Shown here piece by piece: positions 10,479 to 64,000 of a stretch of DNA of 64,000 bases; position 1 is the first letter of the stretch; every line of letters begins with the position of its first letter. Under the pieces are notes generated by a model that was not told the origin of the DNA, did no database searches, and was given only the letters and a program-made list of their open reading frames with translations. The stretch comes from Burkholderiales bacterium (GTDB lineage Bacteria > Pseudomonadota > Gammaproteobacteria > Burkholderiales > Burkholderiaceae_C): assembly GCA_016219375.1 (NCBI GenBank), contig JACRNC010000011.1:62001-126000 (forward strand). The letters are read 5' to 3'. The translations under genes were made by a program, and so were the position numbers.

Positions 10479-12161
10479 TTACCAGCCCTGGGCTCGATAC
10501 TGATCCCACAGCCTTTGCTGCCGAACGCTTTGAGCATCGCACCCATCTTGGCACGAGCCACATTCATTGCATACAAGCCGTGAGCAAGCTGAGCAGCTTT
10601 CCACATCGCCATATACCAAGGGCAATTTCCCGCACCTTACATTTCGGATCGCGTGCCAGCCGCCGCAGTAAGCTACTACCGTGAGCGGCTCGGGACGACT
10701 CTTTCGCAGGGCCTGGAGGATAAAGGGGCTTACCAACCTGAAGCTGTGAATGTCTTTCACTATCTCGCGCAAGCCGGCGCCCAGGGATCTAGTCAGTGAA
10801 AGAAACGATTCAAGATAACCAAGTGGGTCCAGCAATCCAAAGTTCGCAAGCGCGGAGTTACTTGGGGACAGGGCCCAGTTGACGCCTCTTAAGAATTCTT
10901 GCGGGTCTTTGTCGCGAAGCAAGGATTCGAGTGTTCCGCCGATCATGTAGATGATCAGCGTTCTCTTCGAAAGTCCACAATGGGATATTGCGTGCCGCAA
11001 ATCATGAATTATTCTAATTTTGGATTCTGGAAGGCCTTTTGTATGTGCTGGTGAAATGTGCCCTGCCGTTACGTACGTCCACCCAGGCAGTATGGTGGGG
11101 ATTTTCTCCTTAGAGGATTCGCTCAGGATTTTTTCGGCAAGTTGGAAGGCTTCTTCCCGTGCGGGGTAATGTACCTTTGGGTAATCAAAAAGCCAGCCTG
11201 GTATTTTTTTGGTTTGGCATAGTCCGCTGGCAGAAAAGATGCCATCAAATCGGCGGTCTGCCCAGTTGGCAACCTGCCTTATTTCGCTGAGCTTGACTTC
11301 TCCCAGGGCAACTGCCTTGTGTCCACCAATGGACAGCGCTTCGGGCTTGGCAATGTATAACGATCTCACCCCGAACAAGGTAACCTCGCCTAGATTGCGA
11401 GCTTCCTTGTGTTTGGGTATGCAGTGCTCTACATAACGTCCTTTGCCATTGAAGGACGGTCTAGCGTTTTTCACGTCGACCGGGTAGAGTGTTTCAATGT
11501 CGTGCGTGATCCATTCACTGCGGCGTTCGCGTAATTGCGTTATTGATACATCGACCGCATGCCCATAAATATTTCGGTAGTACGCTAACGCCGTCCGTTC
11601 TGCTAATCGCGCCGAAAGCAGGCGAGCCGCATCGTAATCACCCAGCGAGAGAGCTAAGGCTTCGACTCCTTGCTCAGTTGTGGAGAAGTTCTGGGGCTGC
11701 AGGTTGGCCCAGGCGCTACAGAGTTGGATATCCTCAGCAGTTGCTATAGGCGTCTCGAGCTCTATAGGAAAGGGTTGCTGTCGAAGCAATGACGCAAGCC
11801 TTTCCGCTGGTGATAGTTCGTTCCTTTTCGTTGAGGCGGTCAGTTGCCCCCTGAGTGCTAGGTATTGCGTCCTCCATTTGTGGACCCAAGTGCTCAAAGC
11901 TCTTAATTCCTCGGCTGGGGCCTCAAGTCGGCGGTAAGAGGTGCAGGATGAATCCCATTCCGATTTTTGAAGCTCAACGGTCTCGAAGGTCGGTAAAATA
12001 AAAAATAAATGTAATACATTACCGCTCCGGCCAGGAGCGTTTGCAGGAATCCCTCTGTCCATGAGAATCCAGCCGTGCTTGATATGCTTTCCAAGCCAAG
12101 CGGTTATGCCATCCGGCGTAGTGAGTGCGGTCTCCATTTGTTTCCGTTGTTGTATTGCCAT
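10479..12161 (-). CDS. Unrecognised low-GC protein with DxK motif and Cys-rich C-terminus
   Basis: A 560-residue protein I do not recognise. Its DNA is visibly lower in GC (near 50 %) than everything around it, with A/T-ending codons, which points to recent transfer. Residues 221-231 (DIETLYPVDVK) resemble the acidic-D-x-K core of PD-(D/E)xK nucleases, but the evidence is thin. The C-terminus carries eight cysteines (C499, C510, C523, C526, C531, C534, C537, C541; SCSACSRLVCNECGSC), likely a metal-binding knuckle. The middle (LGEVTLFGVRSLYIA, then ALGEVKLSEIRQV) shows a possible internal repeat. No membrane segment. No integrase or partner gene lies beside it. Confidence 0.75.
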   Translation of the reverse strand: MAIQQRKQMETALTTPDGITAWLGKHIKHGWILMDRGIPANAPGRSGNVLHLFFILPTFETVELQKSEWDSSCTSYRRLEAPAEELRALSTWVHKWRTQYLALRGQLTASTKRNELSPAERLASLLRQQPFPIELETPIATAEDIQLCSAWANLQPQNFSTTEQGVEALALSLGDYDAARLLSARLAERTALAYYRNIYGHAVDVSITQLRERRSEWITHDIETLYPVDVKNARPSFNGKGRYVEHCIPKHKEARNLGEVTLFGVRSLYIAKPEALSIGGHKAVALGEVKLSEIRQVANWADRRFDGIFSASGLCQTKKIPGWLFDYPKVHYPAREEAFQLAEKILSESSKEKIPTILPGWTYVTAGHISPAHTKGLPESKIRIIHDLRHAISHCGLSKRTLIIYMIGGTLESLLRDKDPQEFLRGVNWALSPSNSALANFGLLDPLGYLESFLSLTRSLGAGLREIVKDIHSFRLVSPFILQALRKSRPEPLTVVAYCGGWHAIRNVRCGKLPLVYGDVESCSACSRLVCNECGSCQDGCDAQSVRQQRLWDQYRAQGW

Positions 12162-13655: not shown

Positions 13656-13863
13656 GTCGTCTGGGCCCCAGGTCGCGGAGCCGGCGGTGTGCGGGGGAAG
13701 GGGCGGCAAGCATGACACAGCGCCGCTGCCCGTCCCATAGGCTCTGCCCTGATCCGCGCTGCAGCACGCAAGGCGTGGGCTGCGGTGCTGTTCGGCGCGG
13801 CCGGGTGTCCGGGCGAGCCGCCGGCCGGATGGCGACGGGCCCCAAGGGCCAGGGGGCCGCTGA

Positions 13864-13869
13864 TAAACT
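13864..13869 (+). promoter_or_regulatory. Candidate extended -10 of trpE leader transcript
   Basis: TAAACT preceded by TGA (13861-13863) fits an extended -10 element (TGn). No good -35 is visible. The leader ATG follows only seven bases later, which would make the leader transcript leaderless. The same layout is found before aroG. Confidence 0.35.
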
Positions 13870-13876
13870 GCCCGCC

Positions 13877-13954
13877 ATGTTCATGCCGCGCAAACTCACC
13901 AAGGGATCGCACGATCGGGGAGCCTGGCCCTGGCGATGCCCGCACGTCCGGTGA
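13877..13954 (+). CDS. Candidate trp leader peptide (25 aa)
   Basis: A 25-codon frame begins MFMPRKLTKG and contains AWPWRC, with Trp codons at 13925 and 13931, then stops at 13952-13954. Two near-adjacent Trp codons in so short a frame, about 300 bases upstream of trpE, is the hallmark of a ribosome-mediated attenuation leader. Against it: no U-tract terminator follows and the spacing to trpE is long. In a high-GC genome TGG is common, so chance cannot be excluded. Confidence 0.4.
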   Translation: MFMPRKLTKGSHDRGAWPWRCPHVR

Positions 13955-60396: not shown

Positions 60397-62136
60397 TCAG
60401 GCGTCGGCCGGCACGGGGGCCGGGCCGGTGCCCTCGCCCGACTGGTGCTGGCTCATCACGCGGTTGCGGCCGTTGCGCTTGGCCGCGTAGAGCAGCGCGT
60501 CGGCGCGCTCCAGCAGGCCGGCCGGCGTGTCGCCCGCGCGCGAGACGGCGATGCCCATGCTCAGCGTGCAGTTCACCCGGGTGCCCGCGCGCGGCTCGAA
60601 GACCGTGGCCTCGAAGGCCCGGCGCAGCCGCTCGGCCACGATCAGCGCCTCCGATTCCCGTGCATGGGCCAGCAGCAGCACGAACTCCTCGCCGCCGATG
60701 CGCGCGGCCACGTCGCCGGTGCGGATGGTGGCCTTGAGCAGCGTGCCCAGCTTGCGCAGCACCGCGTCGCCGGCCGGGTGGCCCCAGGCGTCGTTGAACT
60801 GCTTGAAGTGGTCCACGTCCAGCGCCACCAGCGCCACGCCGCGGCGCTGCTCCAGCAGGGACTCCAGCTGCCGGCCGAAGCCGCGGCGGTTGAGCACGCC
60901 GGTCAGCTCGTCCTGCAGCATCAGCCGCTGGTATTGCTCGCCGGCTTCCTGCAGCGCCTTGCGCTCGCGGCGCAGCAGCCGGATGCGCCAGGCCAGGGCC
61001 AGCGACAGCAGCGCGGCCTCCAGTGCCGAGCCGATGGCGATCGGCCAGTCCGTCCAGCCGCTGGGCTCCATCAGCCCCAGCCAGCGCGCGGCCCAGACGA
61101 TCACGCCCAGCAGGTAGAGCGTCCAGGCGATGAGGAACACGCCCGCCGTGCGGCTGCCCGCGCGCCAGGCCCACAGCGCCGTGCCCAGGATGACCATCGG
61201 CGTGGTGCCGCCCAGCAGCATCGACACCGCAAAGCTCGGCCCCGCCGGTGCCAGCAGGCAGCCCACGCTGCCCAGCGCCGCAACGCCGATCAGGGCGGAG
61301 AAGCCCCGCGCCGCGCCCGGCACCCAGCGGCGCAGGTCGATGAAGCGGTTGGCGAACATCAGCGCGGTGGTGCAGTTCAGCGCCACCAGCGCATTGGTCA
61401 GCGGCGTCAGCTCCACCTCGGGCAGCGGCCAGATCAGCTGGGCATGGCCCTGGATCAGCGCCTGGTAGACGAGGCTGACCAGCATGTTGAGCGAATACAC
61501 CCGGTAGACCGGGTCGCGCACGGCAACGTCCAGCACCAGGTTGTAGACGATCATCACCAGCATCACGCCGTAGATCAGGCCGAAGAGCAGGGCCTCGCGG
61601 GTGAAGTCGGCCAGGTAGTCGTGCTCGCTCCACACCGTCAGCGACAGGTTGAACGGCGTGGGGCTGCGCAGGCGCAGCAGCAGCGTGTCATCGGCCGCCT
61701 CGGCGGGCAGCACCAGCAGCAGGTTGCGCGTGGGCAGCTGCAGCGGGCCGGCGGTGGCGCCGGGCCGCACGTCCGTGCCGTGCCAATGGCCCTGGGCGTC
61801 GCGCCAATGCAGCGTGGCGGCGCTGACGACGCCCGGGCGCAGCTCCAGCCAGCGCGGGCCGGATGCGGCGCCGGCGCGCGGCAGCTTCAGCCGCAGCCAG
61901 CAGGTCTGCGTGGCCAGGTCCGACCAGTAGGCAGCCTGCTGCGGCTGCTCCACCAGGCGCCCGGCCGGCAGGGCGCGCCACTGCTGCGGCGCCAGGGCCA
62001 GCACGTCGGCCAGCGAGGCTCGGCCGGCGTCGTCGGCCCAGCCCCAGAGCTGCTGCACGCGCTGCGGCGCCGCGCTGGCCGGCAGACCGGCCAGCAGGCC
62101 GATCAGCAGCAAAAGGCGGGAGAGGGCAGCGAGCAT
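60397..62136 (-). CDS. 7TMR-DISM diguanylate cyclase
   Basis: A 579-residue protein: signal peptide (1-22), periplasmic beta-rich DISM domain (about 25-170), seven membrane helices (about 180-385), a short coiled coil and a GGDEF domain. The active-site GGEEF is at 481-485 and the inhibitory RxxD (R472-D475) lies five residues before it, so it should make c-di-GMP and be product-inhibited. c-di-GMP could control the EPS cluster, but no link is proven. Confidence 0.93.
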   Translation of the reverse strand: MLAALSRLLLLIGLLAGLPASAAPQRVQQLWGWADDAGRASLADVLALAPQQWRALPAGRLVEQPQQAAYWSDLATQTCWLRLKLPRAGAASGPRWLELRPGVVSAATLHWRDAQGHWHGTDVRPGATAGPLQLPTRNLLLVLPAEAADDTLLLRLRSPTPFNLSLTVWSEHDYLADFTREALLFGLIYGVMLVMIVYNLVLDVAVRDPVYRVYSLNMLVSLVYQALIQGHAQLIWPLPEVELTPLTNALVALNCTTALMFANRFIDLRRWVPGAARGFSALIGVAALGSVGCLLAPAGPSFAVSMLLGGTTPMVILGTALWAWRAGSRTAGVFLIAWTLYLLGVIVWAARWLGLMEPSGWTDWPIAIGSALEAALLSLALAWRIRLLRRERKALQEAGEQYQRLMLQDELTGVLNRRGFGRQLESLLEQRRGVALVALDVDHFKQFNDAWGHPAGDAVLRKLGTLLKATIRTGDVAARIGGEEFVLLLAHARESEALIVAERLRRAFEATVFEPRAGTRVNCTLSMGIAVSRAGDTPAGLLERADALLYAAKRNGRNRVMSQHQSGEGTGPAPVPADA

Positions 62137-62335
62137 GCGGGGCGTGGGAGTCGGCGCGAGTCAGCGTCAGCCAGCTTCAGTGTGTGGGGGCGGCTCGTTC
62201 AACCGCTGCACGGGCGCGCGGCCTGCGTCGCAGCACCGGGTGCACCGGACGTTCATCGGGCAGGCAGCGGGGATTATCCCGATGTGTGTCGATTTGTGAC
62301 GATTGCGCCGGCCGCGCGGGGACGGGCTTGCGTGC

Positions 62336-62341
62336 TAAAGT
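62336..62341 (+). promoter_or_regulatory. Candidate extended -10 of the aroG leader transcript
   Basis: TAAAGT preceded by TGC (62333-62335), an extended -10 element. No clear -35 is seen. The leader ATG begins eight bases later, so transcription may start at or near the ATG. Confidence 0.45.
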
Positions 62342-62349
62342 CCTGCCCC

Positions 62350-62424
62350 ATGCGTTTGGCCTGCTTTTTCTTCGGCTATTTCTGGTTCTCGCACCGCCCC
62401 GGCGGAGGAGAGGCCAGCCTGTAA
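62350..62424 (+). CDS. aroG leader peptide (24 aa), Phe/Tyr/Trp-rich
   Basis: A 24-codon frame with FFFGYFWF at codons 6-13 (five Phe, one Tyr, one Trp in eight residues), then SHRPGGGEASL and a TAA at 62422-62424. It is followed by a strong terminator, so this is a textbook attenuation leader sensing aromatic amino-acid supply (chiefly Phe). It is upstream of a DAHP synthase, the first enzyme of aromatic synthesis. Confidence 0.9.
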   Translation: MRLACFFFGYFWFSHRPGGGEASL

Positions 62425-62475
62425 GCCCAAAGCGAGCAGCGCAGACCGAATCCCCAAACCGCCGGGCTCCTCGCC
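62401..62475 (+). promoter_or_regulatory. aroG attenuator: likely antiterminator pairing
   Basis: GGCGGAGGAG (62401-62410, inside the leader frame) is complementary to CTCCTCGCC (62467-62475, terminator loop and 3' arm). Ribosome stalling at the Phe/Tyr/Trp codons (62365-62388) would leave this strand free to block the terminator. Confidence 0.55.
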
Positions 62476-62490
62476 CGGCGGTTTTTTTTT
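62459..62490 (+). terminator. Attenuator terminator upstream of aroG
   Basis: CCGCCGGGC (62459-62467), 5-base loop, GCCCGGCGG (62473-62481), then nine T. Perfect nine-base stem; strongest intrinsic terminator in the window. Confidence 0.93.
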
Positions 62491-62578
62491 CGGCCCGTCA
62501 CTTTTCATCCCGCAGCACGCGATCGCCGCCGCCACGAGCCGCAGCCGTCGCCCTTTGTCCCACAGGAGAGCCGCCGCA

Positions 62579-63694
62579 ATGAACACCGCCACCAGCGCCG
62601 CAGAAGGCTGGATCGCCCCCGGCGACAAGACCTCGCGCACCGACGACGAGCGCATCAGGAACGTCACCCCGCTGCCGCCGCCCGAGCACCTCATCCGCTT
62701 CTTCCCCATCCGCGGCACGCCGGTGGAGCAGCTGGTGGACGACACGAGGGAGCGCATCCGCCGCATCCTGCGCGGCCAGGACGACCGGCTGCTGGTGGTC
62801 ATCGGCCCGTGCTCCATCCATGACCCGGCCGCAGCCCTGGAATACGCCAAGCGCCTGAAAGCCCAGCGCGAGGCCTACAAGGACACGCTGGAAGTGGTCA
62901 TGCGCGTGTACTTCGAGAAGCCGCGCACCACGGTGGGCTGGAAGGGCCTGATCAACGACCCGTATCTGGACGGCAGCTTCCGCATCGACGAGGGCCTGCG
63001 CATGGCCCGCCAGCTGCTGCTGGAGATCAACCGCCTGGGCGTGCCCGCGGGCAGCGAGTTCCTGGACGTGATCAGCCCGCAGTACATCGGCGACCTGATC
63101 TCCTGGGGCGCGATCGGCGCGCGCACCACCGAAAGCCAGGTGCACCGCGAGCTGGCCTCGGGCCTGTCGGCTCCCATCGGCTTCAAGAACGGCACCGACG
63201 GCAACATCCGCATCGCCACCGACGCCATCCAGGCCGCGGCCCGCCCGCACCACTTCCTGTCGGTGCACAAGAACGGCCAGGTGGCCATCGTCGAGACGGC
63301 CGGCAACCCCGACTGCCACGTCATCCTGCGCGGCGGCAAGGCGCCCAACTACGACGCCGCCAGCGTGGAGGCCGCCTGCAAGGACCTGGAAGCGGCCAAG
63401 CTGCCGGCCAGCCTGATGGTGGACTGCTCGCATGCCAACTCGTCCAAGCAGCACCAGCGCCAGCTCGACGTGGCGCGCGACATCGCCGACCAGCTGGCCA
63501 GCGGCTCACGGCGGGTCTTCGGTGTGATGGTCGAGAGCCACCTGTGCGCCGGCGCGCAGAAGTTCAGCCCCGGCCAGGACGACCCGTCCAAGCTGGCCTA
63601 CGGCCAGAGCATCACCGATGCCTGCCTGGGCTGGGACGACTCGGCCGAGGTGCTGCGGCTGCTGTCGCAGGCGGTGGCCAAGCGCCGCGGCTGA
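62579..63694 (+). CDS. aroG: Class I DAHP synthase
   Basis: A 371-residue 3-deoxy-D-arabino-heptulosonate-7-phosphate synthase (erythrose-4-P + PEP), first step of the shikimate pathway. VVIGPCSIHDPAAALEYAKRL and GWKGLINDPYLDGSF, SPQYIGDLISWGAIGARTTESQ and DCSHANSSK are the family motifs. ATG at 62579 follows CAGGAG (62563-62567). Expression is likely set by the upstream attenuator. Isozyme type (Phe- or Tyr-inhibited) cannot be told; the Phe-rich leader favours Phe. Confidence 0.96.
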   Translation: MNTATSAAEGWIAPGDKTSRTDDERIRNVTPLPPPEHLIRFFPIRGTPVEQLVDDTRERIRRILRGQDDRLLVVIGPCSIHDPAAALEYAKRLKAQREAYKDTLEVVMRVYFEKPRTTVGWKGLINDPYLDGSFRIDEGLRMARQLLLEINRLGVPAGSEFLDVISPQYIGDLISWGAIGARTTESQVHRELASGLSAPIGFKNGTDGNIRIATDAIQAAARPHHFLSVHKNGQVAIVETAGNPDCHVILRGGKAPNYDAASVEAACKDLEAAKLPASLMVDCSHANSSKQHQRQLDVARDIADQLASGSRRVFGVMVESHLCAGAQKFSPGQDDPSKLAYGQSITDACLGWDDSAEVLRLLSQAVAKRRG

Positions 63695-63713
63695 GCGGCC
63701 TCGTGCCAACCAG

Positions 63714-63739
63714 AAGGGCCGTTTCGCGCGGCCCTTTTT
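63714..63739 (+). terminator. Terminator after aroG
   Basis: AAGGGCCG (63714-63721) pairs with CGGCCCTT (63729-63736), loop of seven, then T-run. Confidence 0.85.
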
Positions 63740-63758
63740 CATGGCGTGATGGCGGCGT

Positions 63759-64000
63759 TCACTTGAGCCAGCCCTTGCGCCGGAAGTACCACAGCGGCGT
63801 GATGGCCGACATGATCATCAGCAGGACGGCGAACGGGTAGCCGAAGTGCCAGTTCAGCTCGGGCATGGCGTTGAAGTTCATGCCGTAGACGCTGGCGATC
63901 AGCGTGGGCGGCAGGAAGGCCACCGAGGCCACCGAGAAGATCTTGATGATCTTGTTCTGGTTGATGTTGATGAAGCCGACGGTGGCATCCATCAGGAAGT
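63759..64000 (-). CDS. corA: CorA-type magnesium transporter, C-terminal part only
   Basis: The visible 80 residues include [20 protein letters not shown], the signature YGMNF before the second helix and a C-terminal KGWLK. These are TM1, the GMN selectivity motif and TM2 of CorA. The N-terminal domain lies beyond the window end. Convergent with aroG. Confidence 0.93.

Follow-up and report, generated by a model that had tools for sequence, protein, structure and literature searches.

Both leader-peptide attenuation of DAHP synthase and, in Sinorhizobium meliloti, a leaderless attenuator RNA are already known. In the AroR-aroF system of Corynebacterium glutamicum (Neshat et al. 2014), as described in two other reports (PMC11802643, PMC4046766), an aromatic leader peptide (Phe-Tyr-Phe) brings about attenuation by ribosome stalling. 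The leader studied here, found before aroG in a 64,000-nucleotide stretch of a Burkholderiales contig (the window), is likewise a Phe/Tyr leader before a DAHP synthase gene and, judged by its sequence, would work as AroR-aroF does; AroR-aroF, however, is actinobacterial and controls one of two DAHP synthases, and the descriptions of its peptide considered here name no Trp and give Tyr supply as without effect (PMC11802643, PMC4046766). The uORFC-13-1 motif, described as confined to Acholeplasma and environmental DNA, with 24 representatives (PMC8632094), is comparable by description: there too a DAHP synthase gene (aroF) directly follows an upstream ORF that contains Phe codon(s) and an intrinsic terminator. 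It differs in that it has a ribosome binding site and at least one Phe codon, with no sensing of Tyr or Trp claimed for it (PMC8632094). The trpL and pheL leaders of Escherichia coli share with the present locus the control codons in a leader peptide and the mutually exclusive terminator and antiterminator, as outlined in part of one report (PMC11802643). Each of them, in contrast, senses a single amino acid and serves a branch-specific gene, trpE or pheA. Their leaders have a ribosome binding site, and the DAHP synthases of E. coli are under TyrR and TrpR. The attenuator RNA rnTrpL of S. meliloti has the leader ATG as its 5′ end (PMC7298713), an arrangement that is predicted only in the window; it differs in sensing Trp only, in preceding trpE(G) and in having an RNA and a peptide that also act in trans. 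A study of Burkholderia cenocepacia lists 82 short 5′UTRs (PMC5688073). We found no earlier report of the beta-proteobacterial and Xanthomonas element in the open-access literature, although Neshat 2014, Lopatovskaya 2010 and Vitreschak 2004 could mention it. What appears to be new is thus a widespread element of these bacteria that, as far as sequence can tell, works like the classical attenuators, every sequence-level feature examined having been found except a general 1:2 hairpin.

The preliminary description of the window had reported a 24-codon frame with the run FFFGYFWF, an antiterminator-like strand and a perfect terminator with nine T, and all of these are present in the place indicated (Table 1); the start that it gave, 62336, is the first base of the −10 hexamer. 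The DAHP synthase said to lie directly behind is equally clear, as the product of aroG scores 536 bits against the NCBIfam aroFGH equivalog model (cut-off 173), and AGGAGA is found at 62564-62569, 5′ of the aroG start. This is the only DAHP synthase detected in the genome, with one class I enzyme and none of class II; the other PF00793 match is a KDO-8-phosphate synthase, encoded between CTP synthase and enolase. Strand 2 is exactly complementary to strand 3, and the leader stop codon is separated from the terminator hairpin by 31 bases.

Table 1. Features of the aroG leader locus, with positions in the window.
Feature	Position	Strand	Remarks	Basis
Extended −10 promoter element TGCTAAAGT	62333-62341	+	Ends 8 nt 5′ of leader ATG	Sequence
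Leader ORF MRLACFFFGYFWFSHRPGGGEASL	62350-62424	+	24 codons; ATG 62350, stop TAA 62422-62424	
Control codons 6-13, FFFGYFWF (Phe-Phe-Phe-Gly-Tyr-Phe-Trp-Phe)	62365-62388	+		Sequence; aromatic run conserved
Strand 1	62382-62397	+	Pairs with 62402-62417 if no ribosome covers strand 1	Minimum-energy fold
Strand 2 CCCGGCGG	62398-62405	+	Antiterminator 5′ strand; within ORF, just 3′ of aromatic run	
Strand 3 CCGCCGGG	62459-62466	+	Antiterminator 3′ strand and terminator 5′ arm	
Strand 4 CCCGGCGG	62474-62481	+	Terminator 3′ arm	
Intrinsic terminator	62456-62490	+	Perfect hairpin, 12-bp stem and 5-nt loop, 62456-62484; nine T, 62482-62490	
aroG, class I DAHP synthase	62579-63694	+	Putative regulated gene	NCBIfam aroFGH; Pfam PF00793
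Upstream neighbour, GGDEF domain	60397-62136	−	Divergent from leader	

Among the ATG-initiated ORFs of 14-34 codons in the window, both strands counted, the leader alone has at least six aromatics per 10 residues (it has seven), and 100 first-order Markov sequences of 64 kb, scanned on the plus strand only, contained no ORF of its kind, a comparison that rules out a chance ORF. Compared with 200 shuffles, the RNA of the leader (62350-62490) had the better fold in 199 cases (z −3.4). A simple terminator scan taken alone was not above chance, with one terminator found against a mean of 1.0 in shuffles. Second to it among the short ORFs of the window comes MGYCVPQIMNYSNFGFWKAFCMCW (10980-11054, plus strand), with five aromatics per 10 residues.

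We read the locus, with a probability of a little under 0.9, as a ribosome-mediated transcription attenuator through which the supply of charged aromatic tRNA sets the expression of aroG, whose product, DAHP synthase, catalyses the entry step of the shikimate pathway. The control-codon ORF, the terminator, the antiterminator exclusive of it and the placement of the control codons were all found, by sequence or by modelling; we infer the start site, the translation of the leader, the stalling, the termination in the cell and the identity of the amino acids that act. Transcription would begin at or next to the leader ATG. With aromatic tRNAs charged, the ribosome would clear the codons of the aromatic run and pass over strand 2, and with strand 2 covered the 3:4 terminator would form and most transcripts would end near 62490. 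With aromatic tRNAs scarce, the ribosome would stall in the run, covering strand 1 and leaving strand 2 free to take strand 3, so that no terminator would form and polymerase would read into aroG. Attenuation at the entry step, as first suggested for this locus, is supported and has precedents in AroR-aroF and uORFC-13-1.

The ORF, the exclusive helices, their conservation and covariation, and the spacing can be read directly from the DNA. Helices 2:3 and 3:4 are mutually exclusive, strand 3 being common to both. Strand 2 in relatives is CCGGCGG, CGCTGGCGG or GAGGCGGT, and strand 3 matches it in step as CCGCCGG, CCGCCAGCG or ACCGCCTC. One position varies across strands 2, 3 and 4 as C-G-C (34 of 61 leaders), T-A-T (11 of 61) or A-T-A (1 of 61), with strand 2 unpaired there in 11 of 61, whereas the GGCGG/CCGCC core is nearly invariant and silent on covariation. 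In a swap test of own against swapped partners, z was −7.7 for 2:3, −4.2 for its inner extension outside the core and −8.8 for 3:4, with none of 1000 permutations as good in any of the three; for two unrelated segment pairs, used as controls, z was −1.8 and −1.3, a contribution that may come from kinship alone, and 3:4 was better than the row median in only 24 of 61 leaders. Column shuffles equalled the observed cells paired, cells with double changes and covariation score in 0 of 500 cases each, but the number of pairs with double changes was not above shuffles (336/500 and 85/500); the structure used for these pair counts has as its ninth pair an A-A mismatch in the window. Terminator pairs are 93% formed in the 61 aligned relatives, some of which have long-looped terminators that were missed by a terminator search with loops of up to 12, and RNAalifold recovers only the terminator. 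The sequence tests proposed in the preliminary description thus support its reading of a leader-peptide attenuator: the two alternative stems covary, 2:3 and 3:4 both going beyond swapped partners, and the same leader precedes aroG in relatives (see below).

The GGCGG of strand 2 lies in frame 0 in 31 of the 61 leaders, in frame 2 in 28 and in frame 1 in two, with different frames in different clades; the RNA, and not the peptide, is therefore what has been kept, and a peptide-level constraint on the C-terminal part of the leader is ruled out. The minimum-energy fold of the window RNA in the absence of a ribosome pairs strand 1 with the segment that contains strand 2 (Table 1). Across relatives this 1:2 pairing was negative both in the swap test (z −1.6; 52/1000) and against a synonymous null (0.75 versus 0.70), so that a protective 1:2 hairpin is clear in the window but lacks support as a general feature.

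The last aromatic codon starts 11-15 nt 5′ of GGCGG in 44 of 61 leaders. We modelled stalling with an assumed footprint, the ribosome reaching past the first base of the A-site codon by 12 nt. For the window the 2:3 probability was 0.99 with the ribosome stalled at any of codons 6-13, fell to 0.62 at codon 14 and was 0 from codon 15 onwards, compared with 0.01 with no ribosome. Stalls at codons 2-5 also gave antitermination (0.83-0.98), so the specificity of the switch rests on codon content alone. Of all 61 leaders modelled, 59 showed antitermination with the ribosome at the last aromatic codon and none with it at the stop codon; with no ribosome antitermination was off in only 34. At equilibrium the full-length RNA always folds into the terminator, and the switch must therefore be kinetic. 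The switch of classical attenuators is likewise kinetic.

Sensing of all three aromatic amino acids would follow from the codons of the window leader, but is unproven, because in 150 distinct leaders the best 12-residue stretch contains Phe in 150 and Tyr in 143 but Trp in only 91; by combination, 90 leaders have Phe, Tyr and Trp there, 53 have Phe and Tyr, six have Phe alone and one has Phe and Trp. (The set leaves out L103, L104, L114, L137 and L138, which are repeats, and L162, whose ORF is not credible.) It is therefore possible, although we consider it rather unlikely, that the attenuator is real but answers only to Phe, or to Phe and Tyr, with the Trp codon and perhaps the Tyr codon of little effect. 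The absence of Trp from the stretch in 59 of the 150 leaders and of Tyr in seven agrees with this, as does the AroR-aroF precedent, the nearest case with experimental tests, whose Phe-Tyr-Phe peptide is reported in a review to respond to Phe limitation and not to Tyr supply (PMC11802643); moreover, trpE of this genome is preceded by a leader candidate of its own, with WPW. Against it, Trp has been kept in 91 of 150 leaders despite being a rare residue, and in the model the Trp and last Phe codons of the window lie where stalling would only just free strand 2. As for the codons themselves, TTT accounts for 126 of 194 Phe codons in the leaders of 46 GC-rich loci, compared with 35 of 365 in aroG of the same loci, a preference that may make the response sharper or prevent structure from forming in the run.

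An aromatic-rich ORF lies no more than 450 bases upstream of aroG in 78 of 100 aroG loci (80 named, and 20 from the own and related genomes), which were picked for similarity to the aroG of the window and so give no rate for bacteria at large; in this count L052 was dropped as a false ORF and L043, with a GTG start, was added by eye. No leader was recognised in the other 22 loci, one of which (L024) has only 49 nt of upstream DNA. Examples of the peptides are MQTRAAIFFGFYFWFSVPGGREARV (Hydrogenophaga pseudoflava, L013), MSAKFYFYFFWHLKPLADREG (Burkholderia peredens, L045), MTRFFFTTYFYFSDSNLEAVE (Oxalobacteraceae, L064) and MNANRSFYFWYYGFPMPLAEEGVRSP (Xanthomonas bonasiae, L072); conservation of the peptide is limited to the aromatic run, and the gap between stop codon and aroG is very variable.

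A covariance model was built from 61 leaders, dereplicated at 90% identity from 77 RNAs (L071, missed by the tail pattern, was left out, and the end of L039 was placed by hand). It finds one full-length match in the own genome (E 2.4e-22); seven other matches there (E 0.01-0.39) are confined to the 3′ part of the model, and a second full copy is rejected. In 300 genomes of the order there are 81 full-length matches (E ≤ 1.7e-6), one per genome, of which 77 adjoin aroG and four, all in one genus, precede another gene; a credible aromatic ORF accompanies 74 of the 77, the exceptions being L162, L182 and L183. None of six weaker full-length matches in the order (E 8.8e-5 to 6.4e-4) or of four partial ones adjoins aroG. 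As aroG is matched at 1e-60 or better in 225 of the same 300 genomes, a leader recognised by the model is present in about one-third of the genomes of the order that have aroG. Counted as model matches, whatever the neighbouring gene, 194 of 200 genomes of the family of the window and 118 of 150 of a second family are positive. In a sample of the class, 7 of 369 genomes match, and the four of these outside the order all have the match before aroG with the aromatic run conserved. Rfam 15 gave no match at the gathering threshold over the leader, in the window or in the loci of ten relatives; the best sub-threshold match scored 19.5 bits where 70 are needed, and the low-scoring matches are probably terminator look-alikes.

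The position of these matches bears on a second alternative, in which the transcript would serve chiefly as a short free-standing RNA and peptide with effects in trans, like rnTrpL/peTrpL of S. meliloti, with control of aroG in cis secondary. A complete promoter-ORF-terminator unit is indeed present, and the S. meliloti attenuator RNA starts at its own ATG and acts in trans (PMC7298713). We regard this as very improbable here, because 77 of the 81 full-length matches lie directly before aroG, a free-standing RNA has no need of a conserved 2:3 helix, and a peptide acting in trans is hard to reconcile with a sequence that is unconserved outside the aromatic run and a strand 2 that changes frame.

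The attenuator reading places the start of transcription at the leader. The pattern TGnTAnnnT ends 6-9 nt 5′ of the ATG in 72 of the 150 leaders and in 50 of the 54 closest (those whose aroG is at least 77% identical to that of the window), compared with 0.4% in shuffles of the 54, and a Shine-Dalgarno-like sequence occurs in only six of the 150. The spacing of this −10 box to the ATG leads us to predict that the window transcript is leaderless, starting at or within about 3 nt of the leader ATG, a point on which the preliminary description does not touch. More distant leaders have instead a TATAAT-like box 36-39 nt 5′ of the ATG, in 16 of 96. The contrary proposal, that aroG is transcribed mainly from a promoter of its own between the terminator and the aroG start and that the leader is of little weight, could draw on the 88 bases that separate the T run from the aroG start and on the widely varying gap in relatives. 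It has, in our view, as slender a chance as action in trans: a σ70 consensus scan of 61500-64000 found no plus-strand promoter-like site, although it also missed the extended −10 of the leader, and the long-range conservation of the switch would be left unexplained. That the terminator belongs to the upstream gene is ruled out, since this neighbour is divergent and a plus-strand terminator can only serve a transcript starting in the gap.

As an attenuator, the leader is a nearly universal, unlisted regulatory RNA of one bacterial family. It is situated where the flow of carbon into aromatic compounds of every kind is set, and it would account for the balancing of supply against three end products in a genome where only one DAHP synthase is detected. 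Reporter data from another beta-proteobacterium, Ralstonia solanacearum, may be relevant too; a leader there is a supposition from a relative, Cupriavidus lacunae (L063), which has one before one aroG. In that study (PMC6379268), aroG1-lacZ and aroG2-lacZ rose approximately 10-20-fold when the other gene was deleted, added Phe lowered them 2-3-fold in those mutants, and each fusion hardly rose on deletion of its own gene; this last result is not accounted for by a shared starvation signal.

Elsewhere in the pathway, no leader was found in the stretch scanned upstream of the PDT (pheA) gene. Before trpE (at about 14252 in the window), a short ORF with WPW, MFMPRKLTKGSHDRGAWPWRCPHVR, lies at 13877-13954 on the plus strand and is probably a second leaderless leader; in this region (13861-13954, plus strand) TGATAAACT is followed by 7 nt and then the ATG, the same kind of −10 spacing as at the aroG leader. 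No T-run terminator was seen there by eye. An ORF ending in AWPWR precedes trpE in 13 of the 22 trpE loci examined, all 13 in the genus of the window, and W-rich ORFs of a similar kind occur in a few other trpE loci. We offer as speculation, with the odds well against it, that Comamonadaceae-like beta-proteobacteria have replaced repression of the TyrR/TrpR kind by two tiers of attenuation, a Phe/Tyr/Trp leader at aroG and a WPW leader at trpE, on leaderless mRNAs that share one extended −10-to-ATG spacing, and that the terminated RNA of about 140 nt and the aromatic peptide may act in trans like rnTrpL/peTrpL.

Several loci depart from the usual arrangement. In two Cupriavidus loci (L023, L025) and three Polynucleobacter loci (L027, L028, L032), aroG is 74-77% identical to that of the window and no aromatic ORF was recognised in the 450 nt upstream, and one genome (G170) has a 78% aroG copy with no leader match nearby and a 65% copy with one. 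The four matches before a non-aroG gene (L184, L186, L187, L188), from one genus in another family of the order, have a similar leader, for example MITFSAVFNAYFYWYRSSRRLQGASLD, and a terminator; in L186 the product of the gene behind the leader is without a Pfam match. In three genomes of one genus (G034, G164, G262), two tandem aroG genes, approximately 40-60 bp apart, lie directly behind the leader match.
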